A DNA stretch of 64,000 nucleotides from Bugula neritina. Lineage: Eukaryota > Bryozoa > Gymnolaemata > Cheilostomatida > Bugulidae. The translations under genes were made by a program, and so were the position numbers. Under the pieces are notes generated by a model. It did not search any database. It was given only the letters and a program-made list of their open reading frames with translations, and was not told the DNA's origin. The DNA is taken from the NCBI GenBank assembly GCA_964035545.1, contig OZ037765.1:33603004-33667003 (forward strand). Reading direction: 5' to 3'. Positions 11,050 to 59,525 of this stretch are shown in pieces (within the stretch, counting starts at the first letter, position 1; each line of letters opens with the position of its first letter).

Positions 11050-11063
11050 GATGGAGGGGAGTG
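11050..11063 (+). other. Polypurine tract
   Basis: GATGGAGGGGAGTG lies directly before the 3' LTR, where the plus-strand primer is expected. The 200 bp between the pol stop and this tract is T-rich and non-coding. Confidence 0.7.
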
Positions 11064-11780
11064 TGTGGTAAAATTGTGTATAGTAACTAATGCTTGTATT
11101 CCCCTTACTATTATTATCTTCATTCCCATGGAATGCGTGTTTTCTTAGATATACATCATTACTTAGCTATAGTATTGTAACAGCTAAGTGTTATGTTGGC
11201 AATGATAGGATTAGCTATTATTCCCAGCTACTTATTACTACTAACGTGACTGGATTAGCTATTGTTTCTGACGGCTCACAGGAACACTTATATAATCAAG
11301 ATAACCGGGATTTCCCTGCGAAGTTCGCTCGATTCGAGCGATTCCTTTATTCTAGCCCTGCGAATCCCCTGCGATTCGAGCGAATTCCCTCGAATTCGCT
11401 CAGAACATTCTGGTGGGAATGTTTCCCAATGTATAAAAGGAAGCCCTCAACACAGTAGAGTCAGTCTTCAGCCAGCAGCACAACAGGACACATCTCGGAG
11501 CTACCAAGCCAGGACAATAACACACGTAGTTAATTATCTTATACTTTGTTTACCAGTTTACTAGTAAGTTTTCCATACATGTAAGGAGTTGTCCTCCCTA
11601 ACTGCTATTTTTGGATTTATATATATTATGGAGTAAATAAAGGGGATTGTGAGTATTACATTTCTTATTTATTGTGCATAAATACCCTCTTACAAAGAGT
11701 CACTGTGTTCAATCAGCTAACAACCCACACCAATAATTGCATGCAGCGAATCATAACATTCTACGCATAAAATTATTACA
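11064..11780 (+). repeat. 3' LTR of complete gypsy element
   Basis: A 717-bp copy of 3120-3836 with three substitutions, followed by the ATTG target duplication at 11781-11784. Confidence 0.95.
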
Positions 11781-17948: not shown

Positions 17949-18799
17949 CTCTCAGGTAGACTGGATATTCTACATCTATTCATATCCAACTGTTTAAGTG
18001 ATGTGAATGATGACACAACATCTGGTACTGTGTTGAGAGTATTCTCTCCTATGTCTAGTTCCTCTAACTGAGTCAGCTGACTAAGACTGTAATATAAAGA
18101 AATAGCATATAGATTACACTAGTGCTGTATAGTGTAACAGTATAGTGACACATAATGTATGTCTACTATAAACTCCTCAACAAATTCATATATAAATCAT
18201 ATCATGAGTGGAAGTGCTCTGACTCAGATATACTCAACTAAATACTCACTTATTCAGACTCTTCTTGTCAGTTATCTTACGGAGTACCAAACAAACAGCA
18301 TGAGAAGCAATCTCTCCTATATTCTTAGGAATTGTCCCCTCTAACTTGAGGTGAGTGAGTTGATAACTCCCAACTTGAGTCTTCACTTCACTCAAAGTAT
18401 ATGATTTGGTTCTAGCATTGTATACACCTTCCAAGTTTACAGGATCCTGTCCAGAATGTCTGAACCAGATTCTGAAAATCCCTGTAACACAGAGATTGTA
18501 GTATGTATTACCATACTGTAGCATTACCATTACCACACATACCTGGCTGTAACTGATGCTTATAATATTATATAATGTTTTCTACTTTATCTAATAATAC
18601 ATAATTTAGAATAGTGTAAATGTGTACGTTTACAATTGAAGTATATTAAATATATTGCTTAAAGTCAGTGAATTGTGACAAGTGTTGTATTTTCTACATT
18701 AATAAGTCATTTGATGATTTCCTAATCCAAAAGAAAGAGCATACGAATATCTGAGAGGATTGAAAATCTCACAAACGGTTACTACATACCTGAAGACAT
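17949..18799 (-). CDS. Gene A: first three coding exons of an LRR-ROC-COR-caspase paralogue
   Basis: Exons by homology to gene B and by splice sites: 18790-18799 (ATGTCTTCAG, donor GTATGT), 18250-18481 (232 nt, the N-terminal domain starting FRIWFRHSGQDPV, donor GTGAGT) and 17949-18086 (138-nt LRR cassette ending in a phase-2 donor). Frames join cleanly through all three. Only one LRR cassette is seen against five in gene B. The next DNA to the left is transposon T1, and no ROC, COR or caspase exon appears between it and the window start. Gene A is therefore either a truncated copy or continues beyond the left edge. The visible exons have no stop or frameshift. Confidence 0.65.
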
Positions 18800-27200: not shown

Positions 27201-27350
27201 CTACTCAGTATCTGGACAGACTTTGTATTTAGGAAACAATAAAACCTTTCTCAATCCAGTGAGAGTCTTTGTTACAACTGGAACCTGCTGTGTCATGTGA
27301 CTATGTTTCTCAGCCAACTTTTTAGTGACCTTTTTGACTCTCTCCTGTAC
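27201..27350 (-). CDS. Gene B exon 15: caspase p10 end and basic tail
   Basis: Acceptor ATTATTACAG, frame 0, ending with TAG at 27203-27201. It codes for VQERVKKVTKK followed by a basic tail. In caspases the equivalent stretch (V-RRVA after the DL--IL helix) closes the small subunit. The gene C counterpart at 53621-53770 encodes almost the same sequence. Confidence 0.85.
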   Translation of the reverse strand, partial: VQERVKKVTKKLAEKHSHMTQQVPVVTKTLTGLRKVLLFPKYKVCPDTE

Positions 27351-30300
27351 CTGTAATAATCAACATGGTTTATATAGAGACACCATAACAATACATATAT
27401 AGCTTTGTTTCTAACTTGAGGAATTAATGAGAATGCATTGGTTCAATAATTTGGGAAACTGCTATATAGATAATTTGAATATAAACATTGTGTACTGGCT
27501 GTATATAGGGGCCAATAAACATGGTATTAGTCTTATTTAAATATTTCTTTTTCAACTATGCTTACATAGATAAATAAAGATATAAAAAGTGCAGTGGCAC
27601 ATGACACACATCACATGCAACACATCACATGGCACACGTCACATGCAACACATCACATGGCACACATCACATGACACACACTACATTAAAGCAGAATAAT
27701 ATATGACTTACGATATCAAACAGAGAAGCAAGATCTCTATGAGAAGAATGTTTGTACAGAGTTTTAACCAACTCTCTGATGAATGGACTTCCATAGTTTG
27801 GATCTCGTATAGAATTTCGACCTGAAAAAAAATTAGTTCTTTCAAGGTTTAAAAGAGTTGACATGACACTAATATACTTGAAATACATCACTGCATACAC
27901 TCTACATTTTAGGCTTAAACTACATATGATGAGTATTAATGGTCAGCAAGAACAGAAAACATAAATTATGAGGCACTTATGCTAAATAAGAGTTTTATAG
28001 AAAGTAATATCAGTATTTCTATTTTAAGATAAAAGTATTTAACAGCCCGAACCTCAGCAGCTAGTCATCATGCAGAGAATACCTACAGCTACCAACATAT
28101 AGATGCATATATACACAGTATCATCAGTTACAAGTAGTTGAATGATTTACCATCAAAGCAAGACTGCAGTATCAACAGATCATCAACATTCAAGTCATTC
28201 CGTCTGCTTGTAGTTTGTTGAGTTTCCTGTTGAGTTTCCTGTCTGGTTGAACTCTCTCCAGACTCAGCCTCTACTCTCTCTATCTGGGCATCTGTGGCAG
28301 CTACACATTCCAATAACGATATTTTATAGATGTAAAAGAAACACTACTCTATCTATTGTATCTCTCTACTGAGAACTATACAATGTTCAATGTTCAGTGC
28401 TATACAAAAAGTTCTGAATATGAAGAAGCAAACTAGTTTATTCACAGAGAGACAACATATATCTTTCAGAGATTTCAGTAAACTGCTCATATGTTACAAA
28501 TATATGTTACAAGATATGAGTAGCACTAACATATTGTATGTACAACTCACCACTTCTACAAGCTACCACGATCACCACTTTAGGTTTCCCAGCCATGTGC
28601 TTGAAGTTGTCGGAAGACAACAAATCAAAGACATTGAGAAGCTTCACTGGTTTCACATCAGTTCCATAGAGAACTCCATGAGCACCAAATGTTCCACCAT
28701 GAGACATGAGTACAGTGACATGCATACCATAGTCTTCATTGTCAGGGCGTTGAATCTCATATTTGATATCCTTCAGCATTTGCTATCACTGGATTCAATA
28801 TATATGAAATAAGTGTGAGAATAATAATCAGCATTATATTGAGTTTGTGTTATTATGTACGTGTTAATGGAGCTTATATATATAGATGACAGAAATTGAT
28901 TGACATAAAGATTTCTGAAAGAATCCCTGACAAATTTTACTCATGCAGTGGTAAAATATTATTATATATATTAGTTTTTATCTACATTATGTTTAAATAT
29001 TGTATGTCTAAATAAAACTTATTTTGTAATGGATTTTGTCAGAGTATGTGCTGAAATGATTTGGGATTTCTGATCACTTAGAAAAGATGTTTCTGGTTGG
29101 CTTTGACTTTACCGTTTCTATAAAACCTATACTAATTATAGCTAACTTTCATTGCATGCTATTTTTAGCTGCTAAACTGAACAGCCTAACCACTGAAATA
29201 GCTTGAAAGTTCAAACTTTGAACTTCCAATTCATATTAGTAATTAGGCTGTGCAGTGCAGCAGCTAAAAATGACATGAACGAAAGTTAGCTATAATTAGT
29301 ATAGGTTTTATAGTAGTGGTAAAGTCAAAGCCAACCAGAAACGTCTTTCCCAAGAGATCAAAAATCCCAAATCATTTCAACACATACTGACACAAAATCC
29401 ATTATAAAACAAAATTAATTAGTTGGGCATACAACCTTATAACATTATTTAAATGAAAACTAATGTATATAAGTATATTTTACTACTGCATAAGTAAAGT
29501 GTGTCAGAGATTCTTCAATATATATCATGCTAGAGGACTTGGCTATAAAGTATACTTATGTGATGTTAATAATGGAAGCCAGTTCACCTCAGCTGTTCTA
29601 TTATATTTCACATCAACTTCAAAGTCCAGATTTCTCAGTACTGCTAGAGTATTTGTTACATCCACATTGGAACCTGTTCTCTTTAGCTGAGGATAACCAT
29701 GGAAGACATTGTTGTTGATAATCAAAACTTTTCCTCTGGCAGTCTCACTCATTCTGTACACCTGGGGGATGGTAGCAATTGCTGGTGTGATGTAAAACTT
29801 AATATTTCAGGTTTACATTGCAACAAGTTAAATTTTTGTGGCACAAACACAAATCCTTGCACTAGCTGTTACAGAACTTGTAAATTATGAAATGCAGAGC
29901 TTTTTTGGCATATAGATAACTCCCAGCTCTAATTTTGGGCTATGTGGCAACCGGTGGGAGGGGATGCGATGAAATGCACAGTTACAGTATTACTTCACAT
30001 GTAAGAAATCTCACTCACTAACCACAATAAAAAACATGCATATATCTCAATTATTCAGTGTTACTTGTTGAGAATAATAATACACAGGTTTATGTTTTTC
30101 AATCTAAAGTATTTTCTGAGTTAATTTAAAAAATAATAACAGCTTCCATCATGTTACTGAAATCAGATTTAGTGCTGATCAGATAATGCTCAGTCTGAAA
30201 ATGTGTATGGAGGTACCTTGTTAGAATAGAATAATTGTTTAATGTCTTCTCTTCTGGTTGTAGAAACCTCCATCTTGACATTGTGTTCTTCTTCAGGAAG

Positions 30301-33300
30301 GAAGAAATCTTTATGATCAGAGATATCACTCTCAGCATCAGATTCAACTTGAGTCTCATCTAAGAATATTACTAAGTAGTGTACTATAGGATAGATTGCA
30401 TTTCATCTAATTAGGCCAAGCTTCTCAGGTATTAATTATCAACACATATGATAACAATCATTTACATAGTTCTAGGATATGAAATCTGAGGTATGCTAAC
30501 ATGTAACTGGTTAGCTATATAGGACACACTAATACCATAAGAGTACTAGAATAGCAATTACCTTCAAAACTGCTAGACTGTTCATATTTGCTAAGGAATT
30601 TTGAAAGATCTTCTTTTTGTTCTTTAGACAAACTGGGGACTACAACGAATAATATGACTAAATTGATAAACACACAACCATATAATATTATAAACTAAAC
30701 ATAACCTTAGTCAATTAACATAACAATAAATAAATACATTAGTATATAAATTGTGAATATAGTCAACCAGAACGTGGTTGTAGTATGTGATACTCACAGG
30801 GGTTGAAGAGACACTCAGGTACAGAGGGATCTTTCTTGCATGTGAAGTGTTTAGTGTCAGATGAGTGGAGAGAAGACTTCTCTCTTTTGCCATGGTACTG
30901 GACCCAGGAGGGATTCATGAGTTTGGAAGGGTGGCGGTCCTCTTCTAGCCCGCAGTGAGGACAGAAGAATTTGCATCCTATTTTACAGGCACGCCATCTG
31001 GTCTCAACGTATTCAATAGAGGAATTAGTGATGTCAACCAGAACTTCCCATGCTCTGCATACTTGACTGGAGTCAAAGGAAACACAGATGTTTACTATTC
31101 CTGACTTGTAGTCATGTACCAGCTGATAGGTTACATCTTTGTTCACCACACGAGCTCCATTATTTTTGGCTGTTATGGAGTCTGACTCTTGAGAGAAAGA
31201 ATTGAGCATGTCTACAGCAAGCTGGTGGTAGGCATACTGTGGTAGTGGAAGGCCATCAAAACGTAGCTGAGCATGAAAGGTGACGCAACTCCTTGTGTTA
31301 GGTAAGTTGTCACTAAGGAACTCCTTACAGAAGTATGGCACAATGAATGAGCTTTCCTCATTGTTTAGCTTAGTGTGATACATTATTCTGAATGTCAGCA
31401 AAATGTTAGCAGCAACTCTCATGGCAGCATTCTCAACAAATTCCGTCTCTGTTTGTAGCAAATGTTCAAACAGCTTACCATGCATGATTCCTGTTGAAGT
31501 AAATTTATCTGCAAATGACCTGTATTCATCCAGAGTAAGAAGTTGTTGCACAGCCGAAGTGGAACTGCTAAAATCTGACAGACGCCGCTGCCAAACTGTG
31601 TCATCATGAGTGAACAGAACTTGCAGGAGTGAAGTGACTGTGGGGATGCGATAGAATATGTAAGGACGCAAGTCCTCATTATTCTTGTACCAGAGCAGCA
31701 TGCCACAGTTGTGCATGTATGTCAGGATGATGTCAAGTTGATTTTCGGTTAATGAGATGCTGTCGGAAAACTGGCTGAAGATGTCTTGGAATGACTTGTA
31801 ACCTTTGTCAAACTTCTTCAAGGCTTGTTCAACTTCCACCCAGGTTCTTGGTATTACTTTCACAAACTGCTTACTCTCTCTCAGCAGTCTCTCTCTCAGC
31901 TGTATGAAAGCTTCACAGTAAGCACTTCCAACCTTATAAATATCTTCAGCTCTGAACATATTCTTTCCTTCAAAATGTTTAATTGTTGAAAAAGCACCGC
32001 CATTTTTCCACTTGCTCTTTTCATCGCGACTGATGATTTTAAAAACATGCTTTGTGTGATGGAAAAAATGATCTTCAATCTCTTCAACCTCGCTTTCATC
32101 AATCTTATCCAAATGAGTCAACACTAAGGTAGGAGGTCCAAGGTTAGGGTAGGTCAGGTAGAGATGTGACAACCAATCAAAATACAGTCGTCTCACTGCC
32201 TCATTACCACCAATATCATGCTGCAGGGCTTCATACTGCTCCAGACTGACGACAACTATTGGGATACAATTTGGTTTCAAAGTAAACCGATATGTCGACT
32301 GATAGATTTCATGACCTCCAAAGTCAATGAATCGCAGCACATCATTATCTACACAAACATCTTCCATTTTGAACACAGGAGTTGTATCATCATCAAGTCC
32401 ACCATTTACTCTGTGAGTAAGAACTCTGGTTCTATCTGTACTCTGTAGTGTCTTAATCAGACTAGTCTTGCCAGACATAGTCTGACCAATAACAGCAACA
32501 GTTACCATGGAAACTTCTACACTGTCACCGTTTCTAATGTCTGTGTAGTATTGTTTGATAGCACCTGCTCCTTGTTGACAAACTTCATATGGTGGTGAAG
32601 CCAATGACACACAACCCTTAGCATCTATATGTGTTAGTAGAGGCATGTCAGCTATCTCTGGTGTCAGAACTTTCAGAGATTTATTTCCACTGAGGTTAAG
32701 ACTTCTCAAGCTAGATAATTGGCTGAAGTTATCAGGTAAACATGTGATCTGGTTTTTTGTCTCCTGATCTTCTAGAAAACTTGCATTGGAAATATTCAGG
32801 TGCTGGAGGTTTGATAGGCTCACAATACTATATAAATAGAATTTTTTTCAGTAATTAATATTATAATTCAGTCAAAATTATATGAGAGAAAAGTTTTTTT
32901 TCTAGCTCTATATAAATGCAAATAATAAAATTAGATTATAACTTACTGACTTATCCTTATTTCACTGTACCAATATAGTATACATTAGTATACATATTAG
33001 GGGTAACAGGGCAAAACGGGCCAAAATTTGAATTTTTTACTCGCATTCGTCTGTTTTTCAAGTTTTCAAGTTGCCGGGGCAAAATGGGCCAGTTTTTAGT
33101 AACATGTGTTACAAAATTCCAGGTGACTTTGTTTCATGAACTGTAGTTAAGGTGGCTGAAGCTTGTGGCTGGAGTGTGGAAATGCTGCGGGGGGGGGGGG
33201 GAAATGAGCAAATCATAATTTATTTATTTTAATCAAATACATGTATATTCTCTCAGTGGTGTAATAAACAATGAATATCATGACTATCTACTAGTAGCAA

Positions 33301-36300: not shown

Positions 36301-39300
36301 TAATACATCTATTAGAACAGTTGTTCCATACCTTTTTCATACCAATCCCCTTTCATTAACGTTCACTATTAATTTCTCAATTTTTAATGACCTATGTTGG
36401 GTGCACTGAAACACTAATAGCTGAAAGTGATTTGGTAGAAGTAGTTAATTCTACTTTTGGTAGTTTCTCAAAAATGCTAAATAGAAAAGTTTCCCTAGAA
36501 TGTACAAGATCTGAGAATATTGGTGGGAGAACTGTTAAAGCCAGTCTTGATGAAAGTGTAATCACTAGCATGAAGAAGCTTGAAAAGATGTTGATTAAGA
36601 TTGCAGAGAGCTCAAGAACAGCAAAACTGTGGGCCATGTGCTTTATTGGACCAATTTTTACCATCAACACCCACATCATAGCTGTTAGAGAATGAGACTG
36701 GGCCTTACACCTAGCAATGGAAGAGGAAATGCACTATCTGCATAGCGTGAAAGTCATGCCCCATGATGTAAGGATTGAATTTGCGGCTGGTAACCACACA
36801 ATGCATCATAAACGCGGCCAGCTCGACGGCATCTGGTTGGACATGACCATTGAGGTGACCTTCGTAAGATTTGGTCACAGCAAGGGGGAATCATTGGCAT
36901 CACCGCTAAATCTGAAACTCTCAAGGTGTGGGTGTACAGCACTTCTGCATTGCATGCAACAAGATACAGTATGGCCGCAGTGACATCAGGGATGAATCTG
37001 AAATAAATGCTTTCACTACTCATAAGGATGAGATGCAATCAAGAATCCAATCTGAGTCTGTCAAATGGAAGATTGAACTCTGCAATGACCCACTAAAAGA
37101 ATGATGCCACCCAGTTGCTTTTGTCAATATTGAAGCAGATAAGTGCAACTGAGATGAGGATGCTTCGAAACATTTACAGTATGAATTGGGAAGACCATGT
37201 AACAAATGATAATATAAAGGAGGAGGCCAAAATAGAAGCTATCGCAATAGACATGAGGAGGAGACCTCTTCAATAGTATGGACATGTGCGCAGAAGAGAT
37301 ACGGAGGAAGATATTATAATGGTGGCTAAGATGAAGATACAGAGAAAGAGAAAGGGAGAGGGGGGAGGGGGCAAAAAAAGGTTAATGGATACAGTGAAGG
37401 ATGGCATACTGAAATGTGGTTTCTCAGATGAAGATGTTGACAATAGAATCAGATGACACTCTCTGATAACACTTGGTGCCCTGCAAAACCGCTACTCATC
37501 CTGGACCACAGCGTACTGGGTGAGCCCTATAATGAACAATTTGCTGCCTTCCCATGGCCTCTCAGGGGCAACAATGTAAAATATCGGAAAGGGAGTCATA
37601 CTAAATGTCTTGGTAGAAGGAAAGTGTGATTTGGTGACACTAGTGCTTTTTTTCAGGATGACTATTCATACAAGCTACCAAGTTTATGCTATGTTGCTAC
37701 AATTATGCAAAGTGCTCCTCCATGACATCTACAAGACAAAAGGTTTGGGAAACCAAGGTCAGCAATGCTATTTGCAATGTGCCTTTAACTTATGGACTTT
37801 GCCTCCTACAGATGAAGCTATTGGACAATGTCACCAGAGCACACCTCCAGGTAGCCATATGAAACTGCGGCATTAAACCCACTGGAACATTGGTAGGTGA
37901 TAGGGAATCTAATAGAATCTCTTTTCCCAAGAGGAGTAGGAAATGATGTTGTGCTTACACCAGTCAGTATCATGAAGTGGATCATGTTAGTTAATTTGGT
38001 GTGCACTCGACGACTCTGGCTTTTGGCGAGTTTTTACAATTTAGCTGCTATATTGTATATATACTTTTGCCTCAAACTATCAAAATTTTAACAAATAAAA
38101 CTGAATAATTAAGGCTTTTCCAATTATGCGTGATTTTCTATGTCTATTCCTAATTTATTATTACATTGGGATATTATATAGGCCGTGATGATTCACAAAT
38201 GTATATTTAGCTCGTATGACAATGACGCCGCGCTTAAATGTTGCAGGACCTCTTCCCAGTCATTTTTGTTATGCATAGATAGAATCAACGAATTCTATTA
38301 CCCCATATAGTAAGTTTTTATGAATTTTGAGCAAACTTTAAAATGTTTGATCATAATCTGCTGATGTATACTAAATAAAGTAAAATGGCCGAAATTCATT
38401 AAATGCTCCTGTGGAAGCCAACAATCATGCAAAACAACACGATATGGCTATTCTAGTACATCTATCCCATGCACAGAGTTCTGCCCTTGTGAAGCAGTAG
38501 CAGGAGTGTGCTGCAATGAACTAACATTTCTAATAAATGCTAATGATAGAAAAAAAATGAAAAAGGTATTTAATATGAATATATGAGTAAAAGTTTGTCG
38601 CATTTGTACGATTATATGTATGTTCAATTTTAACTTTAGCTGAGCAATATGCTGCATCTGTATCTTTTTTCACTTTCTATTCACTGGCAATAAGCAAATT
38701 TTTTCTTTATATATCTGTCCAGTGTCCAAACAGTTATTCAAAAACCTTGTATCATTTTTCTGCACCATATGTGATGTTTTATTGAAGCAATTCCGATTTT
38801 TGAGCTGAGAAACATGTCTCTTGGGTCTTTACTTTGATTCCTTTTTACTGGCATGACACATATTCATTCCAAAAGTGCGCATCTATTTTTTTCTTCAAAA
38901 AAATTTTGTTTTTGCAACATAATATAGACTTTATGCCGACTAGATTACGATTTTGTCATATTTGGCGGCCATCTTGGATTTTTCGAAATGCTCAAAGGTG
39001 GCAGGTCCACACCCACCTGGAAACATCTACCTGGACCCTCAAGATAAATAATCAAAAGAGAAAAAAACTTTATCCGAGATTGCGAACCTAACCCCCAGTT
39101 CTGCCAGACTATATGGGTAGAAACTGTTAAGAATGGCAGCATCACTATAAAATGACTGACACAAGCCCTTGTGCTCAAAAATGCATTGAAAGACATATTA
39201 TAATGCTGCTGCAATACATCCTGAAGTGAATGTCAGAAATCTCAAGTGCACTGGTGTATGTCAATGCAGGGATTGTCTAAACAGAAGATACTTTGGAGGA

Positions 39301-42300
39301 AAATAAGCAGATGAAATTAATGGCAGCAGTAATATAATTATGGTAAGAAAACTCTACACAATGGAACACTACTTTGAAAATTTTGTTATATAGTTTGCTC
39401 CCTAATATTTTTGTGATTTCGAAATGAATTTAAAGAATCTTGTTACTTTTTACAGATATTTAGTGATCACCGTCAGATCAATAGAAGACTCATTTGGTAA
39501 GTTCTCAAAAGCTGTCAACATGTAACGATAGTATATGTCTTTTAAACACTTGATTCTTTGACACATCATCATAAAAAGCTTTTGATCTTACATAACTATA
39601 GCTTCTTTAATAAACATATTATGTAGGCTTCTGCCAAATATTATAATGTGCCATCCATATAGCAAACATGTGTTTCTATTAACAACTCTAAAATAGTGCT
39701 TTGCAATTTATAGATTCAGAATCAGTGTAGAACTATAAAAAAGAAACAACCAATTTTGATTTGTCACCAACTCTTATTGTTTTTATAGAGGGCTAGTTAG
39801 TTAATAGTAAATGCTTCTTTTATTACCCATCAAAGATGTCGATTTGCGTTTTTGTGCAGAAGCTTGAGTTAGAGTAGAGATAGAATTCTAGAGTATAATA
39901 TGTAAATTTTGATCTAGAATAACAACTTTTTTTGAGTGGCGACCTAGTAAAGTGTAATAAGGTGAGTTTTTGAGCACTTTTTAGGAGGTTACTTCTAGAC
40001 CAATTGTATAAGACAGGAAGATCAGGCTGAGTACAGGTAATACGAGTAAGCTTTGTATCTTGTATATTATTTTATATACTTTAAGTGGTGTATATATATA
40101 ACTTACCAGGAGATAATAAAAATATTGTGAAGTAGTAATAAACATGTGACACACAAACCTATCAGGTAGACTGGATATTCTACATTCTCTCATATTCAAC
40201 TGTTTAAGTGATGTGAGTGATGACACATCATCTGGTACTCTGTTGAGAGTATTGTATCCTATGTTTAGTTTCTCTAACTGAGTCAGCTGATTGAGACTGT
40301 AATATATAGTTATACTATGGGAAAAGAATAAAATTACACATCACATATGTATATTATGCAGCACAGAGATATGCATGGGACCACAACTCATATTATACTA
40401 ATACAATATCTATTAGTTGTCAAAGTTATAATATCCCAGTTAAACTGGTGGCTTTAGCATCTAATATGACTTTTACAAATAATTATACTTGATTTTTGTG
40501 TATGTCAGAATATTAAAAATGTGTGATTCACCTATGAAATTTTTACAAGTCTGAATAATTCTACACATGGTCATGCATAAGGGTGCTTCTCGAAATTACT
40601 GTGGTCCACCCTTACCATTTCATTGCATAACACACGGAACTCAGGCTGAGTACAGAGATTATAGCTATACTTTGTATCCTGTATATTATTTTGTATACAA
40701 TAAATTGTGTATAAATAATATAGTTGAAAGGAAGGCAATTATGATGTGAAGTAGTAATAAACATGTGACACACAAACCTCTCAGGTAGACTGGATATGCT
40801 ACATTCACTCATATCCAACTGTTTAAGTGATGTGAGTGATGACACAACATCTGGTACTGTGTTGAGAGTATTCCATCCTATGTCTAGTTTCTCTAACTGA
40901 GTCAGCTGACTGAGACTGTAATATAAAGTTATACTATGACAAGAGAGTAAAATTACACATAACATGTATTTTATACAGCACAGAGATATGCATGTGACCA
41001 CAACTCATATTTTACAAATAATATATTATTGATGATTTGTCAAAGTTATATCTCAAGTAAATCAATGGCCTTAGCACCTAATATGATGCTTACAAATATA
41101 CTGGGTTTTGTGTATGTCATATATAACAAAAAATGTTTTAACTACTTATGAAATCTTCATGAGTGCTAATAATTTTATTTATTGTCATTCGAGAGGAGGG
41201 CTTTCCAAATAATTGCATCCTAGCTTTACTATTTAATTGTATAACACAGGGAACTCAGGCTGAGTACAAATATTATAGCCACACCCTATAGCCTGGATAT
41301 TATTTTATATACTATATAAGTTGTGTATAAATATAAGTTACAGAGTAGTGATAATGATGTTGTGAAGTAGTAATAAACATGTGACACACAAACCTCTCAG
41401 GTAGACTGGATATACCACAGTTATTCATATTCAACTGTTTAAGTGATGTGAGTGATGACACAACATCTGGTACTGTGTTGAGAGTATTCAATCCTATGTC
41501 TAGTATCTCTAACCGAGTCAGCTGACTGAGACTGTAATATAAAGTTGTACTATGACAAGAGAATAAAAAATTTGACATAATATTTTATGCAATACTGAAA
41601 TATGCATGAGGCCACAACTCTGTATTTCACAGATATATTAATTAAAAGTAAAAATAATACCCAGATAAAGTGGGCTATAGCACTTCATATGACTATATAC
41701 TAATATGTATCTACTAGAAAGTATACAATATGCTAAGCTTTAAACGTGGTCATAATTACACTCTACCCTTACTATTTAATTGTATAACACAGAGAACTCA
41801 GGCTGAGTATAGAGATTATAGCCACACCCTATAGCCTGGATATTATTTTATATACTATATAAGTTGTGTATAAATATAAGTTACAGAGTAGTAATAATGA
41901 TGTTGTGAAGAAGTAATAAACATGTGACACACAAACCTCTCAGGTAGACTGGATATTCTGCAGTCACTCATATCCAGCTGTTTAAGTGATGTGAGTGATG
42001 ACACAACATCTGGTACTGTGTTGAGAGTATTCCATTCTATGTCTAGTATCTCTAACTGAGTCAGCTGGGAGAAACTGTAATATAAAGTTATACTATGACA
42101 ATAGAATAAAATTACACATAACATGTATTTTATGCAGCACAGAGATATGCATGGGACCACAACTCATATTATACTAATACAATATCTATTAGTTGTCAAA
42201 GTTATAATATCCCAGTTAAACTGGTGGCTTTAGCATCTAATATGAAGCTTAGAAATTTACTGGTTTCTCTTGTATGTCATAACATCCGAAATTCTTGAAT

Positions 42301-44123
42301 TACTCATGAAATTTTCACGAGTCCTAACACTTTTACTCATGGTAATTTGAGAGGAGGGTTCCCCAAATAATTACACTCTATCCTCATTATTGAATTGTAT
42401 AACACAGGGAACTCAGGCTGAGTACAAATATTATAGCCACACCCTATAGTCTAGATATTATTTTATATACTATATGAGTTGTGTATAAATGTAAGTTACA
42501 GAGTAGTAGTAATGATGTTGTGAAGTAGGAATAAACATGTGACACACAAACCTTTCAGGTAGACTGGATATACCACAGTGATACATATTCAACTGTTTAA
42601 GTGATGTGAGTGATGACACAACATCTGGTACTGTGTTGAGAGTATTCCCTCCTATGTTTAGTATATCTAACTGAGTCAGCTGAGAGAGACTGTAATATGA
42701 AGAAATAGCATATAGATTACACTAGTGCTGTATAGTGTAACAGCATAGTGACACATAATGTATGTCTACTATAAAATCCCCAACAAATTCATATATAAAT
42801 CATACAATGAGTGGAAGTGCTCTGACTCAGATATACTCAACTAAATACTCACTTATTCAGACTCTCCTTGTCAGTTATATTACTGAGTACCAAACAAACA
42901 GCATGAGAAGCAATCTCTCCTATATTCTTAGGAACTGTCCCCTCTAACTTGAGGTGAGTGAGTTGATAACTCCCAACTTGAGTCTTTACTTCACTCAAAG
43001 TATATGATTTGGTTGTAGCATTGTATACATCTTCCAAGTCTACAGGATCCTGTCCAGAATGTCTGAACCAGATTCTGAAACTCTCTGTAACAACACAGAT
43101 ATTGTATTATCATCATACAGAGGCTGCAACTAATGCTTATGATATTCTAAATGTGTGGCTACACTTTCTTTTTACCACAACTTTATCACAGCCAGTTAAT
43201 GCAGGTTAAATAATTACAGATGGTTCACAGTGTATTCTACTTCATGTATAAATATTTTGTCAATCTCTCAATAATCGCCAAACCCATTTAGTTGCAGCTG
43301 CTATAATAGTTATCAAATACATTTTTTATAATCAGTTGAAAGAACTTTGGACCTACCGGACAGCTCGAGTATTAGAAGTCATATATATATGCTAAGTATA
43401 ACTATACCAGTCTGTGATAAACTCATAATGGTCAACTCTGTACACATGACATGCAGTTTAAACAGGCAATTATTGTGAATGTTTTTAATTACAGAGACCA
43501 CTTTTTAAGTCTATATAACTGCCTTTGAAATTGTCTAACATTTTATATAGTATTTTAAAGCAGAAAATCCACCTTATAGTTTAACAAAAAGTTGGCTTTT
43601 AAACCAGATTTGGTTGGGTGTTACACATTTTACCATGCAATCATTGTGTTGCTTTTCATCCTAAAGACATGACATGACCATCATAGTTAATATTTTAGCT
43701 AATGAGCGTCAATGCTATACCACGCTCTACTTTTCTACCACTATACTATTAGGAACGTAATCCCAGCATGTTATTTGGAAGAAAGTGCTTTTGGTATTTT
43801 TCCAAAGCTCTTCTGATATATTCAAGTAATGCAGGATTTATATTCATATATAGCAAGATATAGTTGCTTACTTAATGTAGCCAACCCAAGTTTTTTTTTC
43901 TACACTCTTTTGTGACATCTACCGGTTGTTCTGCTTGTAGCTAAAAGCCTCTAATCTATATAATGTGTTTCTTTTTAAATTTTGCATCAGAAAAGATTAT
44001 GTTTTCAGAATATTAGAAGCATGAAATGCATTTAGCTTTAGTCCAATTTAACAGAGAAAGAAAAACACTACATTGAATACATTAGAATAATGGTAGATTA
44101 CCTCCAGAAGTGTCTTCTTCCAT
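27201..44123 (-). CDS. Gene B: LRR-ROC-COR protein with C-terminal caspase-like domain, 15 exons
   Basis: Exons, 5' to 3': 44102-44123, 42853-43084, 42552-42689, 41937-42074, 41394-41531, 40778-40915, 40159-40296, 30798-32827, 30562-30639, 30217-30359, 29588-29761, 28551-28782, 28151-28300, 27712-27821, 27201-27350. Every junction has GT/AG and phases match throughout. Order of parts: N-terminal domain of unknown type, five LRR cassettes, further LRRs, ROC GTPase, COR-like region, Cys-rich tail, acidic linker, caspase-like p20 and p10. The start ATG at 44123 has an in-frame TGA 21 nt upstream in genomic DNA. ROC-COR proteins are nucleotide-dependent switches and caspases are Asp-directed Cys proteases, so a sensor-protease role in immunity or death is inferred. 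The weak point is intron 7 (7.3 kb), which contains transposon T2; a transcript is needed to prove the join. Confidence 0.7.
27712..27821 (-). CDS. Gene B exon 14: caspase p10 core
   Basis: Acceptor TTTTTTTCAG, donor GTAAGT. It encodes IRDPNYGSPFIRELVKTLYK, matching the caspase small-subunit pattern SWR-x-GSWF-QxLC-xL. The substrate-pocket Trp of SWR is Ile here, while the Arg is kept. The helix end HRDLASLFDI corresponds to the caspase DLL-ILT segment. Counterpart in gene C: 54113-54222. Confidence 0.85.
28151..28300 (-). CDS. Gene B exon 13: p20/p10 linker and first p10 strand
   Basis: Acceptor AATGTGTAG, donor GTAAAT. The first part is a Glu/Gln/Ser/Thr-rich linker with QETQQETQQTT. The end, VDDLLILQSCFDG, aligns with the first p10 strand (ADFLVAYSTVPG in typical caspases). 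The gene C version (54821-54949) is 21 nt shorter, all in the linker. Confidence 0.8.
28551..28782 (-). CDS. Gene B exon 12: caspase catalytic exon (His and Cys)
   Basis: Acceptor CCAGTGATAG, donor GTGAGT. It contains the catalytic His in VLMSHGG, the caspase-type YGTD, the GKPKVV strand and the catalytic Cys in VACRSG. The usual pentapeptide is QACRG; here Gln is Val and the residue after CR is Ser then Gly. Gene C (55505-55736) has LACRNG. The exon ends just after the Cys loop, phase 1. Confidence 0.88.
29027..29404. mobile_element. Fold-back MITE in the p20 intron of gene B
   Basis: The ends ATGGATTTTGT and ACAAAATCCAT are flanked by TA, and arms of about 160 bp pair with few mismatches (for example ACCTATACTAATTATAGCTA and its complement). 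No coding. Gene C keeps only the left arm (55975-56193). Confidence 0.85.
29588..29761 (-). CDS. Gene B exon 11: start of caspase p20
   Basis: A 58-codon exon, phase 0-0, acceptor ATCCCCCAG, donor GTGAAC. VYRMSETARGKVLIINNNVF matches the first p20 strand (Y-M---RG-ALIINN-F). KRTGSNVDVTNTLAVLRNLD matches the R-G---D---L---F--LGFEV helix, including the first substrate-binding Arg. Gene C counterpart: 56200-56373. Confidence 0.88.
30217..30639 (-). CDS. Gene B exons 9 and 10: linker between COR-like part and caspase
   Basis: Exon 9 (30562-30639) encodes SLSKEQKEDLSKFLSKY, a predicted helix. Exon 10 (30217-30359) encodes an acidic segment DETQVESDAESD followed by REDIKQLFYSNK. Aspartates in DETQ and ESD contexts are plausible autoprocessing sites separating switch and protease; this is inference. 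Counterparts in gene C: 57248-57325 and 56828-56970. Confidence 0.82.
30798..32827 (-). CDS. Gene B exon 8: LRR end, ROC GTPase, COR-like region, Cys-rich tail
   Basis: A single 2,030-nt exon (phase 2 in, phase 1 out). It begins with about 100 residues of LRR. The ROC domain has P-loop GQTMSGKTS (near 32487-32461), switch-II DFGGHE and a THLD base-recognition motif. A COR-like region follows (QLDIILTYMHNCGMLLWYKN and on). The C-terminal part has a C-x3-C-x3-C-x2-C cluster ending FFCPHCG and a later FTCKK/C/C pair, possibly zinc-binding. ROC-COR proteins usually act as GTP-dependent dimers. The gene C exon (57487-59525) is 9 nt longer and closely similar. Confidence 0.92.
32998..33892. mobile_element. 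Short element with GGGGCAAAATGGGC-type inverted ends
   Basis: The left end TAGGGGTAACAGGGCAAAAC and right end (reverse complement TAGGGGCAGTGGGGGAGGGG, then CACAATGGTC) are inverted-repeat-like. The counterpart at 59698-60505 has ends AAGGGTATAACGGGGCAAAA and AAGGGTAATGGGGGCACAAT. Both copies contain a minus-strand open frame and a poly-G run. It sits in intron 7 of gene B and the same intron of gene C, so it predates their duplication. Confidence 0.5.
33291..33485 (-). other. Open frame kept in both duplicated copies, function unknown
   Basis: It encodes about 64 residues including KHHGKTTKLQGEAPLIHTSG. The counterpart 59982-60182 is similar with only an in-frame 1-codon difference. It may be a remnant of the element's protein, or a fragment kept open by chance and recent duplication. 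No family recognised. Confidence 0.35.
33893..34375. repeat. 19-bp palindromic minisatellite
   Basis: Units ACTATACATAGTATACATT, each self-complementary around TATACATAGTATA, in about 25 copies. The counterpart array at 60500-60765 in gene C's intron is shorter. Confidence 0.93.
35336..35461 (+). pseudogene. T2 coding remnant, 5' piece
   Basis: In one frame the plus strand reads TKTNL-LH-K then ATKRRATIAFVNAPFPDYY, matching the LPPTK-RANYQAAIWRRATT-ID-P part of the T1 remnant. It is interrupted at 35462 by the nested transposon and continues at 39114. Confidence 0.5.
36387..37143 (+). pseudogene. Decayed middle part of the transposon protein family
   Basis: Read with frameshifts: SRTAKLW, then LH/HSV, AGNHTMHH, DGIWLDMTIE-TF-R-GH, GIIGITAKSETLKVWVYS, HKDEMQSRIQSES and VNIEAD. 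This order matches the middle of the uncharacterised invertebrate family whose C-terminus is the CXC array. At least two frameshifts (near 36690 and 36890) and stops disable it. The LINE fragment starts where the reading ends. Confidence 0.55.
37115..37456 (+). pseudogene. C-terminal fragment of an RTE-like LINE reverse transcriptase
   Basis: EMRMLRNIYSMNWEDHVTND, YGHVRRRDTEEDIIM and KKRLMDTVKDGI match the conserved end of RTE-type LINE proteins (MLRW-G---DR-RN, W-GHV-RR, RPKKRW-D-V). One in-frame TAG precedes YGHV. A stop at 37454-37456 is in the expected place. It is a truncated, dead insertion. Confidence 0.65.
37740..38000 (+). pseudogene. Decayed C-terminal part of the nested element's protein
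   Basis: Reads LPPTDEA, then in another frame NVTRAHLQVAI and NCGIKP, then PVSIMKWIM. This corresponds to the LPPT, RAHLQVAIW and W(M) segments before the CXC array in the same family. Frameshifts and stops are present. Confidence 0.4.
39114..39330 (+). pseudogene. T2 coding remnant, 3' piece with CXC cysteines
   Basis: Continues the piece at 35336-35461 across the nested element: VETVKNGSITIKWLTQ-like reading, then CTGVCQCRDCLNRR. The counterpart at gene C is 63140-63345 and is uninterrupted. Confidence 0.45.
40159..42689 (-). CDS. Gene B exons 3-7: five 138-nt LRR cassette exons
   Basis: Exons 42552-42689, 41937-42074, 41394-41531, 40778-40915 and 40159-40296 are each exactly 138 nt, phase 2 at both ends, with acceptor TATTACAG (ATATTACAG in most) and donor GTTTGTGTG. 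Each encodes 46 residues, two LRRs of 23, with the pattern LSQLTQLE-LDI--NTLNTVP and VVSSLTSLKQLDM--C-ISSLPE. Flanking introns are also similar, with spacing 543-619 bp, so exon and intron were duplicated together. LRRs normally form a ligand- or partner-binding solenoid. The variable positions sit in the INC-like ascending faces. Confidence 0.9.
42853..43084 (-). CDS. Gene B exon 2: N-terminal domain
   Basis: A 232-nt exon, acceptor TTGTTACAG, donor GTGAGT. It encodes SFRIWFRHSGQDPVDLEDVY and then a segment ending at the first LRR. The gene A exon at 18250-18481 is the same length and very similar. I do not recognise the family. Confidence 0.85.
44102..44123 (-). CDS. Gene B exon 1: start codon and seven residues
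   Basis: ATGGAAGAAGACACTTCTGGAG with donor GTAATC. The frame joins exon 2 in phase 1. Gene A has a similar short start exon (18790-18799). A longer 5' extension is not excluded. Confidence 0.55.
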
Positions 44124-53620: not shown

Positions 53621-56600
53621 CTACTCAGTATCTGGACAGACTTTGTATTTAGGAAATAATAAAACCTTTCTCAAGCCAGTAAGGGTCTTTGTTACAACTG
53701 GAACCTGCTGTGTCATGTGACTATGTTTCTCAGCCAACTTTTTAGTGACCTTTTTGACTCTCTCCTGTACCTGTAATAATCAACATGGTTTAAATAGAGA
53801 CACCATAACAATACATATATAGCTTTGTTTCTAACTTGAGGAATTATTGGGAATGCATTGGTTCAATAATTTGGAAAACTGCTATATAGATAATTTGAAT
53901 ATAAACATTGTGTGGTGGCTGTATATGGGGGTCAATAAACATGGTATTTATCTTATCTAAATATTTCTTTTTTAACTATACTTTCATAGATAAATGAAGA
54001 TATAAGAAGTGCGGTGGCACATGACACACACTACATGACACATCACATGACACATATCACAGGACACACATCACATGACACACACTACGTTAAAACATAA
54101 CATATGACTTACGATATCAAACAGAGTGACAAGATCTCTATGAGAAGAATGTTTGTACAGAGTTTTAACCAACTCTCTGATGAATGGACTTCCATAGTTT
54201 GGATCTCGTATAGACTTACGACCTGAAGTAGTGTAATAAATGACTTATATAAAAGACATGCAGTCATATAGAGTCAGAAGCACCACTTGATAATACTAGG
54301 TCAGGGATTCTGATATAAGCAGACAGAGTTTACAGAACTCTTTGGTAAATGAGATGTTAAGTTGTGTATCTGTTACTTTATAATTATCAGAAGAAGTCAA
54401 TATGACCTTGCTATTGGGAATAACTTGTTCCCTACTGTATAGCAGCTAATGAACAACTACAAAAACCACACAACTACAAATAATTGTAAAATATAAAATA
54501 TAAACTGTAATTGAAAATATAGTTCATACTATAATGTGTGAGTATCTGTAAGGTTGCACTGCTATGATAATTCATTCTATCTGTACAACACTTATGATCT
54601 GCATGTACCACTAGATGAGCATACAGGTGGCCCTGAAGTACTTTACTGATAACAGAAAAGAAAATACTCCAAGCTATTAATTTGTGTATGAATTAAATAA
54701 TAGTATAAAAATAAATATAATTAAATTGGAGAAAAAGAATATAATATATTGCTACAAATTGAAAACATGCAAATAAATCAATGAGCATTAAGTAGACCAG
54801 ACATGTCTGTAACAGCTTACCATCAAAACAAGACTGTAATATCAACATATCATCAATGTTGAAGTTCTTCCTTTCCTTTTCAATTTGCTGACCTCCATCC
54901 TGACTTTCCTCTCCTTCTGAGCTTTCCTCAGATTGGGCTTCTATTTTCTCTACAAGTACACAGACAGTAGCTACATATATTGTATGATAACAGATTCTGT
55001 CAACATATTGGTGAAGTTTGAATTTTCACAGCATTCAATTTCTCAAAATCTGATCTGTTACTTGTTTGATAGTGTGGTGGGAGATAACTCCACACTGTGA
55101 AGTGAGTTGGGCTGTAAGAGATCTATAATAACACTAATGAGCCTTTTCTAACAGACGTGTGTAGATATATTTCAGTGTATATTATAGGTATGTTTTAGTA
55201 GATTATCCAAATTATTGCTAAACATGAGTTTTATGTTTCTTTGATAAATTGTAAAAGCTGAACCAAAAACGTTTTTAAAGTTTTGCATTGGTGCAACAAT
55301 CAGAAATATAAAAAATATAAATACATCAAATTAGCTCATACACTTACTAGCCATTCTGAAAGTTACAGCGGAAATGAAATATTGGCAGTTAATGCAAACT
55401 TTTTGTAAAAATAAAAACTCAATATATAAAAATATTTAACCGGTCAGCAATGGGAAGAAATAGAAACACTGAATTGTTATGTGATAAAATACTGCAGTGT
55501 TTACCATTTCTACAGGCCAGCAAAATCACAACTTTAGGTTTCCCAGCCATGTGATTGAAGTTGTCCGATGATAGCAGATCGAACACATCTAGAAGTTTTA
55601 CTGGTTCCAGATCAGTTCCGTATAGCATTCCGTAAGCTCCATAAGTGGCACCATGAGACATGAGTACAGTGATATGCATACCATAGTCTTCATGGTCAGG
55701 GCATTGAATCTCATATTTAATATCCTTCAACATTTGCTGTCAATAAATTTAATATATTAAATTAGTGTGAGAATAATAATCGGCATTAGATTGAGTTTGT
55801 GTTGTTATGTGTTAAGGGAGCTTATAGATAGATGACAAAAAGTAATTGGCATAAAGATTTCTGAAAGAATCCCTGACAAATTTTACTTATGCAGTGTTAA
55901 AATATTATTATATATATTAGTTTTTATTTACATTCTGTTTAAAGATTGTACACCTAAATAAAATTTGTTTTATAATGGATTTTGTGTCAGTATGTGTTGA
56001 AATGATTTGGGATTTCTGACCGCTTGGAAAACACATTTCTGATTGGCTTTGACTTTACCGTTGCTATAAAACCTATACTAATTATAGCTAACTTTCATTG
56101 CATGTCATTGTTAGCTGCTAAACAACACAGCCTATAATCACTGAAATAGCTTGAAAGTTTAAAGTTTGAACTTTCAATTCATATTAGTAATTAGTTCACC
56201 TCAGCTGTTCTATTATATTGCACATCAACTTCAAAGTCCAGATTTCTCAGTACTGCTAGAGTATTTGTTACATCCACATTGGAACCTGTTCTCTTTAGTT
56301 GAGGATAACCAGGGAATACAATGTTGTTGATAATCAAAGCTTTTCCTCTCGCAGTCTCACTCATTCTGTACACCTGAGGGATGAATGCAATTATTGGAGA
56401 TGTGTAAAACTTAGAAAATCAAGTTTATACTACTACAAGTAAAATTTATGTGGCACAAACACAATCACTTGCACTAGCTGTTTCAGAACTTGTTAATTAT
56501 GAAATGCAGAGCCTTTTTGTATATGGATAACTCTTAGCTCTAATTTTGGGTTATATGACAACCAGTGTGAGGAGAAGCAATGAAATGCACAATTACAGTA

Positions 56601-59525
56601 TTACTTCACATGTATGAAATCTCACTCACTAACCACAATAAAAAACAAGCATATATCTCAATTATTCAGCGTTACTTGTTGAGAACATTAATACACAGGT
56701 TTATATTTCCTAATCTAAAGTACTTTCTGAGTTACTTTAAAAAATAATAACAGTTTCCATCATGTTACTGAAATCAGATTTAGTGCTGATCAGATAATGC
56801 TCAGTCTGAAAATGTGTATGGAGGTACCTTGTTAGAATAGAATAATTGTTTAATGTCTTCTCTTCTGGTTGTAGAAACCTCCATCTTGACATTGTGTTCT
56901 TCTCTAGGAAGGAAGAAATCTTCATGATCAGAGAGATCACTCTCAGCATCAGATTCAACTTGAGTCTCATCTAAAATATTACTGATTAGCATAAAGCATG
57001 CTATAATATTTACTATGTACTGTATACGAAATTCTAAGATAAGATTGTTATTGATTGTTCAGTAGTACACACCTCTATGATGGCACAGAATCACATGGTA
57101 TGTGTCAGCATTACATTAACACATTCCATTAATGGACATTATTACATTATAACATATACTTATAAAATATAACAGAGATCATGATGCAAGTTGAATTGTT
57201 AGTCATCTAGCTACTTCAACATAGTATGAGAAAAGTATATTATTTACCTTCAGAGCTGTTAAATCTTTTATATTTGCTGAGAAAGCTTGAAAGATTTTCT
57301 TTCTGCTCTTCAGACAAACTGGTGACTGTAAAAAGTAATATGAATGTATTGATGAACACACAACTACATATTGAACTATTATAAAGTAATGAAACCTTAC
57401 TCAAATGATTTAAAAGCTGCATACATATGAGTATATAAATTGTGAATATAGTCAATCATAACGTGGTTGTAGTATGAGATACTCACAGGGGTTAAGGAGA
57501 CACTCAGGTACAGAGGGATTGTTCTTGCATGTGAAGTGTTTAGTCTTAGATGAGTGGAGAAAAGACTTCTCTCTTTTGCCATGGTACTGGATCCAGGAAG
57601 GATTCATGAGTCTGGAAGGGTGGCGGTGCTCCTCTAGCCCACAGTGAGGACAAAAGAACTTGCATCCTATCTTACAGGCACGCCATCTGGTCTCAAAATA
57701 TTTAATAGAGGAGTTGGTGATGTCAACCAGAACTTTCCATGCTTTGCATACTTGGCTGGAGTCAAAGGAAACACGGATGTTTACTATGCCTGACTTGTAG
57801 TCATGTACCAGCTGATAGGTTACATCTTTGTTCACCACACGAGCTCCATTATTTCTGGCTGTTATGGAGTCTGCGTCTTGAGAGAAAGAATTGAGCATGT
57901 CTACAGCAAGCTGGTGGTAGGCATACTGTGGTAGAGGAAGACCATCAAAACGTAGTTGAGCATGAAAGGTGACACAACCCCCTGTGTTGGGTAAGTTGTC
58001 ACTAAGGAACTCCTTGCAGAAGTATGGCACAATAAATGAGCTTTCTTCATTCTGTAGTTTACAGCAGTACATTACTCTGAATGACTTTAGAATCTTAGCA
58101 GCAACTCTCATGGAAGCATTCTCAACAAATTCTGTCTCTGTTCGTAGCAAATGTTCAAACAGCTTAACATGCATGATTCCTGCTGAAGAAAATTTATCTT
58201 CAAATGACCTGTATTCATCCAGAGTAAGAAGTTGTTGAACAGTCGAAGTGGAACTGCCAAAATCTGACAGACGACGCTGCCAAACTGTGTCATCATGAGT
58301 GAACAGAACTTGCAGGAGTGAAGTGACTGTGGGGATGTGATGGAATATGTAAGGACGCAAGTCCTCATCATTCTTATACCAGAGCAACATGCCACAGTTG
58401 TGCATGTATGTCAGGATGATGTCAAACTGCTTTTCAGTTAATGAAATGATGCTGGAAAACTGGCTGAAAATGTCTTGGAATCGCTTGTAACCTTTGTCAA
58501 ACTTCTTCAAGGCTTGCTCCACTTCCACCCAGGTTGTTGGTATTGCTTTCACAAACTGCTTACTCTCTCTCAGCAATCTCTGTTTTAGCTGTATGAAAGC
58601 TTCGCAGTAAGAGTTTCCAACTTTATAAATATCTTCAGCTCTGAACATATTCTCTCTTTGAAACAGTTTTATTTTTGCAAAAGCACCTCCATTTTTCCAC
58701 TTGCTCTTTTCATCGCGACTGATGATTTCGAAAACATGCTTTGTGTGATGAAAAAAACGATCTTTAATCTCTTCAACCTCGCTTTCATCAATCTTATCCA
58801 AATGGGTCAACACTAAGGTAGGAGGTCCAAGTTTAGGATAGGTCAGGTAGAGATGTGACAACCAATCAAAATACAGTCGTCTCACTGCCTCATTACCACC
58901 AACATCATGCTGCAGGTCTTGATACTGCTCCAGACTCACAACAACTATTGGAATACAATTTGGTTTCAAAGTAAACCGATATGTTGACTGATAGATTTCA
59001 TGACCTCCAAAGTCAATGAATCTCAGCACATCATTATCTACACAAACATCTTCCATTTTGAATACAGGAGTTGTATCATCATCAAGTCCACCATTTACTC
59101 TGTGAGTAAGAACTCTGGTTCTATCTGTACTCTGTAGTGTCTTAATCAGACTAGTCTTGCCAGACATAGTCTGACCAATGACAGCAACAGTTACCATGGA
59201 GACCTCTACACTGTCACTGTTTTTAATGTCTGTGTAATATTGTTTGATAGCACCTGCTCCTTGTTGACAAACTTCATATGGTGGTGAAGTCAATGACTCA
59301 CAATAATCAGTATCTATTTCTGTTAGTAGAGGCATGTCAGCTATATCTGGTGTCAGAACTTTCAGAGTATCATTTCGCCTGAGGTTAAGATGTCTCAAGC
59401 TAGATAACTGGCTGAAGCTATCAGGTAGACATGTGATCTGGTTTTTAGCCTCCCGATTTAGTATATATTGTAGAGAATGTCCATTAGAGATATTCAGATG
59501 CTGGAGGTTTGATAGGCTCACAATA
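53621..59525 (-). CDS. Gene C: LRR-ROC-COR-caspase paralogue, 3' eight exons
   Basis: Exons 57487-59525, 57248-57325, 56828-56970, 56200-56373, 55505-55736, 54821-54949, 54113-54222 and 53621-53770, all with GT/AG sites and matching phases, ending TAG at 53623-53621. The ROC P-loop GQTMSGKTS, DFGGHE and THLD are intact. Caspase His (LMSHGA) and Cys (LACRNG) are present. The first exon listed starts in phase 2, so upstream LRR exons are required; they must lie beyond the right edge, past the T2 copy starting at 60995. Relative to gene B: exon 8 is 3 codons longer, exon 13 is 7 codons shorter, and the p20 intron has lost DNA close to its donor. No disabling mutation is seen. Confidence 0.85.
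55505..56373 (-). CDS. Gene C caspase p20 exons
   Basis: 56200-56373 encodes RMSETARGKALIINNIVF and the KRTGSNVDVT helix. 55505-55736 encodes LMSHGATYGAYGMLYGTD and the catalytic LACRNG, donor GTAAAC. Relative to B, G in SHGG is A and ACRSG is ACRNG, so the two loops next to the active site differ between paralogues. Confidence 0.86.
55975..56193. mobile_element. Half of the fold-back MITE in gene C
   Basis: Left arm and centre of the element found whole at 29027-29404. The right arm and about 180 bp of intron are missing, and the sequence resumes 6 bp from the p20 exon donor. Confidence 0.8.
57487..59525 (-). CDS. Gene C large exon: LRR end, ROC, COR-like, Cys-rich tail
   Basis: A 2,039-nt counterpart of gene B exon 8, with acceptor TATATAG and donor GTGAGT. 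Most differences from B are single residues. The largest divergence is in the LRR segment just after the acceptor, where gene C has a 3-codon insertion near SLQYILNREAKN. Confidence 0.92.

Follow-up and report, generated by a model that had tools for sequence, protein, structure and literature searches.

Predicted LRR-ROC-COR-caspase proteins and their gene family in the bryozoan Bugula neritina

Does an animal genome encode proteins that run, within one chain, from leucine-rich repeats (LRR) through a ROC GTPase and COR into a caspase? This question is raised by a 64,000-nucleotide stretch of the genome of the bryozoan Bugula neritina (contig OZ037765.1, positions 33,603,004 to 33,667,003 of the forward strand; hereafter, the window), in which a sequence-only reading had noticed eight consecutive exons, at 27201-32827, with motifs of both a ROC GTPase and a caspase, and had proposed a one-protein sensor, switch and protease in defence or cell death. 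We find that this gene (gene B), a second gene of the window (gene C) and the majority of a genome-wide set of at least 80 loci can be read as encoding one protein each, with an N-terminal module, an LRR sensor built from exon cassettes, a ROC-COR switch, an acidic linker and a metazoan-type caspase (p20 followed by p10) that would act by a proximity mechanism, a reading that we consider fairly probable.

Gene B and its predicted protein

The hand-built core of gene B comprises eight exons on the minus strand that run from 32827 to 27201, are separated by GT-AG introns, match in phase and keep the frame open up to a TAG at 27201, yielding 1021 amino acids (aa). All eight exons lie where the sequence-only reading had placed them, and the motifs that it quoted are present (GQTMSGKTS, DFGGHE, THLD, RG-LIINN, SHG, ACR and GSPFIREL), but the gene turned out to be longer than proposed: the extended model, with 15 exons and 1336 aa, spans 44123-27201 on the same strand, its start near 44123 being followed, upstream of the core, by one N-terminal exon and then by five exons of LRRs. 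The first exon (44102..44123) holds the proposed start codon, the ATG of MEEDTSG, and the second (42853..43084) encodes an N-terminal module to which no Pfam family could be assigned. Each of the LRR cassettes a to e (42552..42689, 41937..42074, 41394..41531, 40778..40915 and 40159..40296, respectively) is exactly 138 bp long and is entered and left in phase 2; given that the ROC exon is also entered in phase 2, such cassettes can be gained or lost without a break of the frame. Exon 8 (30798..32827), assigned by Pfam and profile searches, encodes the final LRRs, the ROC GTPase, COR and a Cys-rich end, and is followed by the linker exons e2 (30562..30639) and e3 (30217..30359), the latter with an acidic SDxSD stretch and then IKQLFY. 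The caspase part consists of two p20 exons, one with RGKVLIINN (29588..29761; Pfam and PDB sequence match) and one with the catalytic His of SHG and the catalytic Cys of ACRS (28551..28782; Pfam and active-site reading), a p20-p10 linker exon that is the least conserved of all (28151..28300; 46% identity between B and C) and two p10 exons assigned by Pfam, one with GSPFIREL (27712..27821) and the last with the stop codon (27201..27350), the protein encoded by the latter being identical in gene C.

The caspase domain that had been proposed at the C-terminal end is readily found by profile search: Pfam Peptidase_C14 matches residues 759-1003 of the gene B protein (E-value 1.2e-39, 136.9 bits, cut-off 21.4) over nearly the whole profile (positions 1-229 of 233), with p20 and p10 in that order. 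In a PDB search, residues 749-1009 match caspase-1, caspase-3 and other animal caspases (best, caspase-1 8wra, 2e-20), and the best 60 of the 192 matches are all animal caspases or an ancestral reconstruction thereof.

For the upstream part of the same protein, the Pfam matches are COR-A (7.8e-8, 32.8 bits, cut-off 35.3), LRR_8 (1.1e-5, 25.6 bits, cut-off 27) and Roc (2e-4, 22 bits, cut-off 27), and Roc is matched by all five members of alignment A2 (E-values up to 0.001). The P-loop GxxxxGK[S/T] reads GQTMSGKTS in gene B, and its residues G114, G119, K120 and T121 are invariant in the 36 ROC-COR sequences of profile A1 (B, C, 18 database proteins and 16 loci). Compared with the PDB, this profile matches over ROC the structures 3dpu (4e-17; listed as a Rab family protein) and 4wnr (1e-16), which we take to be the Roco proteins of Chlorobium and Methanosarcina, respectively, as well as LRRK1 (2e-8) and LRRK2 (9e-8); LRR-only proteins score equally, one of them at the top of all (4u09, 1.4e-18), and none of these matches extends into COR in its best stretch. 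A profile-to-profile alignment against 12 LRR-ROC-COR proteins, of which 7 carry the name Nostoc, is collinear through LRR, ROC, COR and the Cys-rich end (probability 99.7 over 523 columns), such that the Cys-rich region of gene B is probably the end of COR. The closest named relatives of the ROC-COR part in the database search come from animals, namely, Watersipora and Branchiostoma, the Watersipora proteins carrying the names MFHAS1 homologue and lrrA-like. No Pfam match to a kinase, ankyrin or death domain was found in the gene B protein, and its NTPase is ROC by both Pfam and profile, rather than the NACHT or NB-ARC of an NLR (STAND) protein; gene B may work like an NLR, yet is not one.

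As had been claimed from the sequence, the arrangement is repeated in gene C (53621..59525, minus strand), where a hand model and splice-aware alignment give eight exons from ROC-COR to caspase (59525-57487, 57325-57248, 56970-56828, 56373-56200, 55736-55505, 54949-54821, 54222-54113 and 53770-53621), in agreement with the core of gene B in exon count and phases; the model covers the gene from 59525 onward. Given the protein of gene B only, the splice-aware aligner reproduced all internal splice sites of gene C save one, the uncertain acceptor of the sixth exon, that is, the p20-p10 linker, which it placed at 54970, 21 bases upstream of the position chosen by hand (54949). Between B and C, the ratio of non-synonymous to synonymous rates (dN/dS) amounts to 0.31 in ROC-COR and to 0.25 in the caspase part.

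The sensor part was compared across six LRR cassettes, the five of gene B and the one of gene A, a third gene of the window in which a single cassette (17949..18086, minus strand) follows an exon that copies the N-terminal one; a seventh, from locus L023, was excluded as belonging to another subfamily. At the six predicted ligand-facing positions of the two LxLxxN/C strands, dN is 0.546 vs a dS of 0.029, compared with 0.065 and 0.070, respectively, at the other 39 positions, and these six columns hold 14 of the 26 extra residue types (permutation 0.00011); the sample is small, the cassettes are not independent of each other and, as a point against the comparison, the positions were set from the LRR consensus after the alignment had been viewed. 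In the 6 pairs formed by the gene A cassette and cassettes a, b and c, the first 80 bp of the following intron are more alike than the exons (0.93-0.97 vs 0.88-0.93), whereas in the nine pairs that involve cassettes d and e, the introns are less alike than the exons (0.70-0.81 vs 0.88-0.93; ungapped). The LRR cassettes appear to vary mostly at the positions predicted to face a ligand.

A clustered family and its possible readings

Two sets of loci were drawn from the genome, one of 39 loci chosen by long open frames (460-733 aa) from the 150 Roc matches listed, and the other of 65 loci identified with the gene B exon (65 of 137 candidates scored). Merged, they comprise at least 80 distinct ROC-COR loci. 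When the genome was searched with Peptidase_C14 (150 of 176 matches listed, 150 of 295 candidates scored), a caspase match was found downstream, on the same strand and within 12 kb, for 69 of the 80 loci, upstream on the same strand for 1 and on the opposite strand for none, all among the matches listed. Eight of the 11 remaining loci (L017, L021, L028, L029-L032 and L043) show caspase exons by spliced alignment; for locus C6:2539420, the caspase match lies slightly further off, at 12.2 kb, which leaves two of the 11, C6:5055498 and C5:14733638. Downstream DNA was retrieved for 25 loci (L009-L032 and L043), all of which contain p20 exons, those of L015 lying in the adjoining stretch L041, and p10 was found in 20 of these; for a 26th locus, L042, the retrieved stretch lies upstream and is masked over most of its length. 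The 27 genes read all carry one kind of effector, a caspase. Behind no listed ROC locus lie 68 of the 150 listed caspase matches, of which some must be ordinary caspases and some may be family members with an unscored ROC exon. The 80 loci are spread over five scaffolds (35, 26, 10, 7 and 2 loci), and for 70 of them another family member lies within 150 kb.

That the LRR-ROC-COR part is fused to the caspase, as had been proposed, is favoured by the exon phases, the linker shared by paralogs, the co-occurrence across the genome and a gene model from another bryozoan, and an LRR-ROC-COR-caspase encoded as one transcript is the likely arrangement. We consider it very unlikely that two adjacent genes, LRR-ROC-COR and then a separate caspase, have been duplicated as a unit: phases agree at every junction in both B and C, linker exons e2 and e3 contain no in-frame stop, and the linker, an acidic SDLSD stretch followed by IKQLFSNTDKV, is common to subfamilies. 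It also recurs in the 936-aa protein P0045 of Watersipora subatra, which bears the name MFHAS1 homologue and has a Roc match below the Pfam cut-off, and the gene model of which runs continuously from LRR-ROC-COR into the linker and ends 5 residues past the position of the caspase exon junction in Bugula; the final residues, VILIS, look like read-through into an intron. Two separate genes would be compatible with the in-frame ATGs within e3 and close to the beginning of the first p20 exon, although a Met ahead of RG.LIINN is usual in caspases. The distances of ROC-COR and of caspase p20 correlate across 26 genes (r 0.55, 0 of 999 permutations beyond), as expected if the two parts travel together, but two linked genes would yield the same. 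Finally, no protein with both Roc and PF00656 was found among 21 and 91 database matches, so that the caspase fusion is seen in no second species there; most of these matches come from short metagenome contigs without intron modeling.

The e3 ATG and this negative search result weigh against the single protein, and so do several other observations. The Roc and COR-A scores of gene B alone are below the curated Pfam cut-offs, and COR-A is matched by only one of the five A2 members. In e3, B and C differ by 4 non-synonymous and 0 synonymous changes, such that this exon by itself is without sign of constraint. The p10 part was not found in 5 of these 25 loci: the stretches of L022, L029 and L032 end too early, and in L009 and L020, none turned up. 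A frameshift step is present in each of L009 and L014 and one stop in L027, and 14 of the 65 ROC stretches contain stops (introns or decay); some family copies may be broken.

How might such a protein work? Caspases are activated by proximity, and Roco proteins undergo a nucleotide-linked dimer cycle. In the scheme that we propose, the LRR face would bind a microbial, damage or non-self ligand, and binding would change the nucleotide or dimer state of ROC-COR and thereby bring two caspase domains together; activated by induced proximity, these would undergo self-cleavage between p20 and p10 before cleaving downstream targets, resulting in cell death or alarm signaling. Where the catalytic Cys or His is lost, the copies would serve as regulators or decoys, in the manner of cFLIP, which modulates caspase-8. 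A point against this scheme is that, in bacterial Roco, GTP favors the monomer, such that the switch may run either way. There are three gasdermin-type exon matches in the genome, given which a pore-forming substrate for the caspase is conceivable. The sequence shows the gene models with their domains, the size of the family, the states of the active site and the variation of the LRRs; we infer the single transcript, the location of the protein, its route of activation, its targets and its immune role, the last of these being the best reading of the family, which probably represents a one-protein immune sensor-protease.

The catalytic residues bear on a different reading, under which the family is mainly regulatory, with the caspase domain serving as a binding or dimerization module and catalysis being incidental. 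Splice-aware models misplaced the end of the second p20 exon in several paralogs, and the active site was therefore read from the raw frame of this exon, which is readable in 26 genes (the 27 less L029, where the stretch ended). Both the catalytic His and the catalytic Cys are kept in 18 of the 26, including B and C with their canonical SHG and ACR, and one of the two is lost in the other 8, by Cys-to-Ser replacement in six genes (L014, L015/L041, L016, L017, L023 and L024), Cys-to-Tyr in L032 and His-to-Leu in L019. The term protease used in the sequence-only reading hence does not hold for all copies, and the family appears to be a mix of predicted proteases and predicted dead copies. The eight losses, as well as the Ser that replaces Arg after the catalytic Cys in the Cys-keeping copies other than B and C, count for the regulatory reading, and the losses also against general proteolysis; the 18 intact genes and the caspase-part dN/dS of 0.25 tell against it, and we deem it unlikely. 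A colony-fusion system, in which variable LRRs would read kin type and the caspase would kill cells at incompatible contacts, agrees with the colonial habit of the animal, with the large, clustered family and its diversified LRR face, and with the mention of allo-incompatibility in bryozoans in PMC8195603 (this and the other papers cited below by accession were read in excerpt, to which all statements on them refer); we judge it quite unlikely, and retain the reading as a one-protein immune sensor-protease.

Neighboring genes, elements and other genomic matches

One ROC-COR subfamily, at C7:5.06-7.72 Mb and C1:0.35-0.36 Mb, has one or two in-frame stops in the big exon in all 11 copies listed; these stops may mark an extra intron, not decay, and caspase matches lie behind these copies. 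On C1, a ROC exon seemingly embedded in a 2363-aa frame was dismissed, this frame being the product of a masked stretch. On contigs such as C58, C90, C99, C210, C144 and C36 (L001-L003 and L005-L008), Roc- or Rab-like matches are readable only through TAA and TAG, as they would be under a ciliate code; taken with the additional COX1 genes of C17, C65 and C196, these matches suggest that the assembly includes cobiont contigs. The COX1 of contig C295, translated with the invertebrate mitochondrial code (code 5), matches that of Bugula neritina (A9UK96) at 100% identity, which speaks against a sponge as the source of the genome. A further COX1 copy, covering the whole profile, lies on nuclear scaffold 6 (C6:11174072-11175412) and represents either a nuclear mitochondrial insertion or a misassembly.

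Within the window, no ROC exon of the at least 65 loci identified with the gene B exon lies in the part that belongs to gene A. The N-terminal exon common to genes A (~18.5-18.2 kb) and B (43084-42853), on the minus strand in both, could encode an unnamed domain (only the copy of B was scanned with Pfam). Beside gene A, there is a gypsy-type long terminal repeat (LTR) retrotransposon on the plus strand, with LTRs at 3118-3836 and 11062-11780 and open frames at 3876-5003 and 4895-10843, which encodes a reverse transcriptase, RNase H, integrase, protease and zinc knuckle; its 719-bp LTRs are 99.58% alike, which points to a probably young insertion. Open frames are also present at 36360-39088 (plus strand) within the 7.3-kb intron of gene B that precedes the ROC exon; the three that were scanned had no Pfam match, and they are perhaps transposon debris.

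Known Roco systems and the place of the Bugula family

The LRR-ROC-COR-caspase architecture is known in bacteria, and for animals, no description was found in the literature examined. The sequence-only reading had known of no described ROC-COR-caspase, which for animals agrees with our search of the open-licence literature, conducted mostly at the level of titles and beginnings of abstracts; for bacteria, it does not stand, such proteins having been described by domain analysis. Kaur et al. 2021 (PMC8195603) report bacterial LRR-AP-GTPase(ROC)-COR conflict proteins, in which at least 24 domains, including caspase, TIR and trypsin, can occupy the C-terminal position, and name the kinase of DAP as the metazoan case. 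The bacterial proteins share with those of Bugula the order of parts, namely, variable LRR, ROC, COR and a C-terminal effector, and the presence of several copies per genome; per the gene models of B and C, LRR, ROC, COR and the C-terminal caspase are predicted to lie in one chain here as well. The Bugula family differs in that it belongs to an animal, has introns, an animal-type caspase as the one kind of effector (27 genes) and LRR exon cassettes, and numbers tens of copies.

The partners that had been given for animal ROC-COR proteins, kinase, death and ankyrin domains, fit LRRK, DAPK1 and MFHAS1, which are named in PMC4104024 (MFHAS1 in deuterostomes only), but that list was too short, given that TIR (PMC5094078 and PMC4104024) and CARD (PMC4104024) partners are also in print. 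With LRRK1/2, DAPK1 and MFHAS1, gene B shares the LRR-ROC core, the LRRK1 and LRRK2 structures being matched by profile, and it differs from them in its caspase and in the lack of Pfam kinase, ankyrin or death matches. Similar to Bugula, Trichoplax has an enlarged ROC-COR family linked with domains of the death type, with at least 17 ROCO genes that include CARD, death, TIR and other domains; the passages and figure legend of PMC4104024 do not give caspase itself as a partner. In actiniarian sea anemones, one gene (NG1) combines LRR, Roc/Ras, a low-threshold COR and TIR (PMC5094078); NG1 and NG3 resemble the Bugula genes in being lineage-specific and in joining Roc/Ras and COR (and LRRs in NG1) to an immune effector, which is TIR where Bugula has a caspase. 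The LRR-ROCO family of the brown alga Ectocarpus (Zambounis et al. 2012, via PMC4104024) is likewise clustered, its LRRs occupying repeated exons of their own, which lend themselves to shuffling, but these exons are 72 nt long compared with the 138 nt in Bugula, and no caspase appears in that passage. In a paper on NLRs of the sponge Dysidea (PMC12909245), CASc and COR are among the domains of the NLR figure, without a statement that they share a protein, so that a sponge ROC-COR-caspase is possible. Searched by term, the two Bugula genome papers gave no match to 'immune' (PMC11480708) or to caspase, immune, leucine-rich and apopto (PMC7576161). Genome-wide, NACHT has 1 partial match in Bugula and NB-ARC has 0, with the proviso that exon-wise searching can miss intron-split domains; this scarcity would fit the ROC-COR-caspase family doing the work of NLRs but is only suggestive.

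The NLR and caspase-1 inflammasome combines an LRR sensor, an NTPase switch and a caspase activated by proximity; in Bugula, all these parts would lie in one chain, with a Roco GTPase as the NTPase. Bryozoans may have swapped most of the NLR-inflammasome relay for one-chain receptors, in which fast-diversifying exon-cassette LRRs would act through a Roco GTPase on an executioner caspase, with the Cys-dead copies as brakes, an animal counterpart formed separately from the bacterial LRR-ROC-COR-caspase suicide sensors; we advance this replacement tentatively, being slightly more inclined to doubt than to accept it. Our confidence in both the single protein and the replacement is slightly lowered by the ATG and the lack of constraint in e3, by the absence of p10 in two loci and by the Trichoplax and Dysidea papers.

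If these readings are true, B. neritina would possess a large animal receptor family that combines sensing, nucleotide switching and proteolysis in one chain, and inflammasome-like activation would be open to study without adaptors. It would become testable whether a Roco GTPase gates a protease by proximity, which would bear on the ROC-COR modules of LRRK2 and DAPK1. An animal would have arrived at a domain architecture used in bacterial defence proteins; for a colonial marine phylum, the family would be a candidate recognition repertoire.

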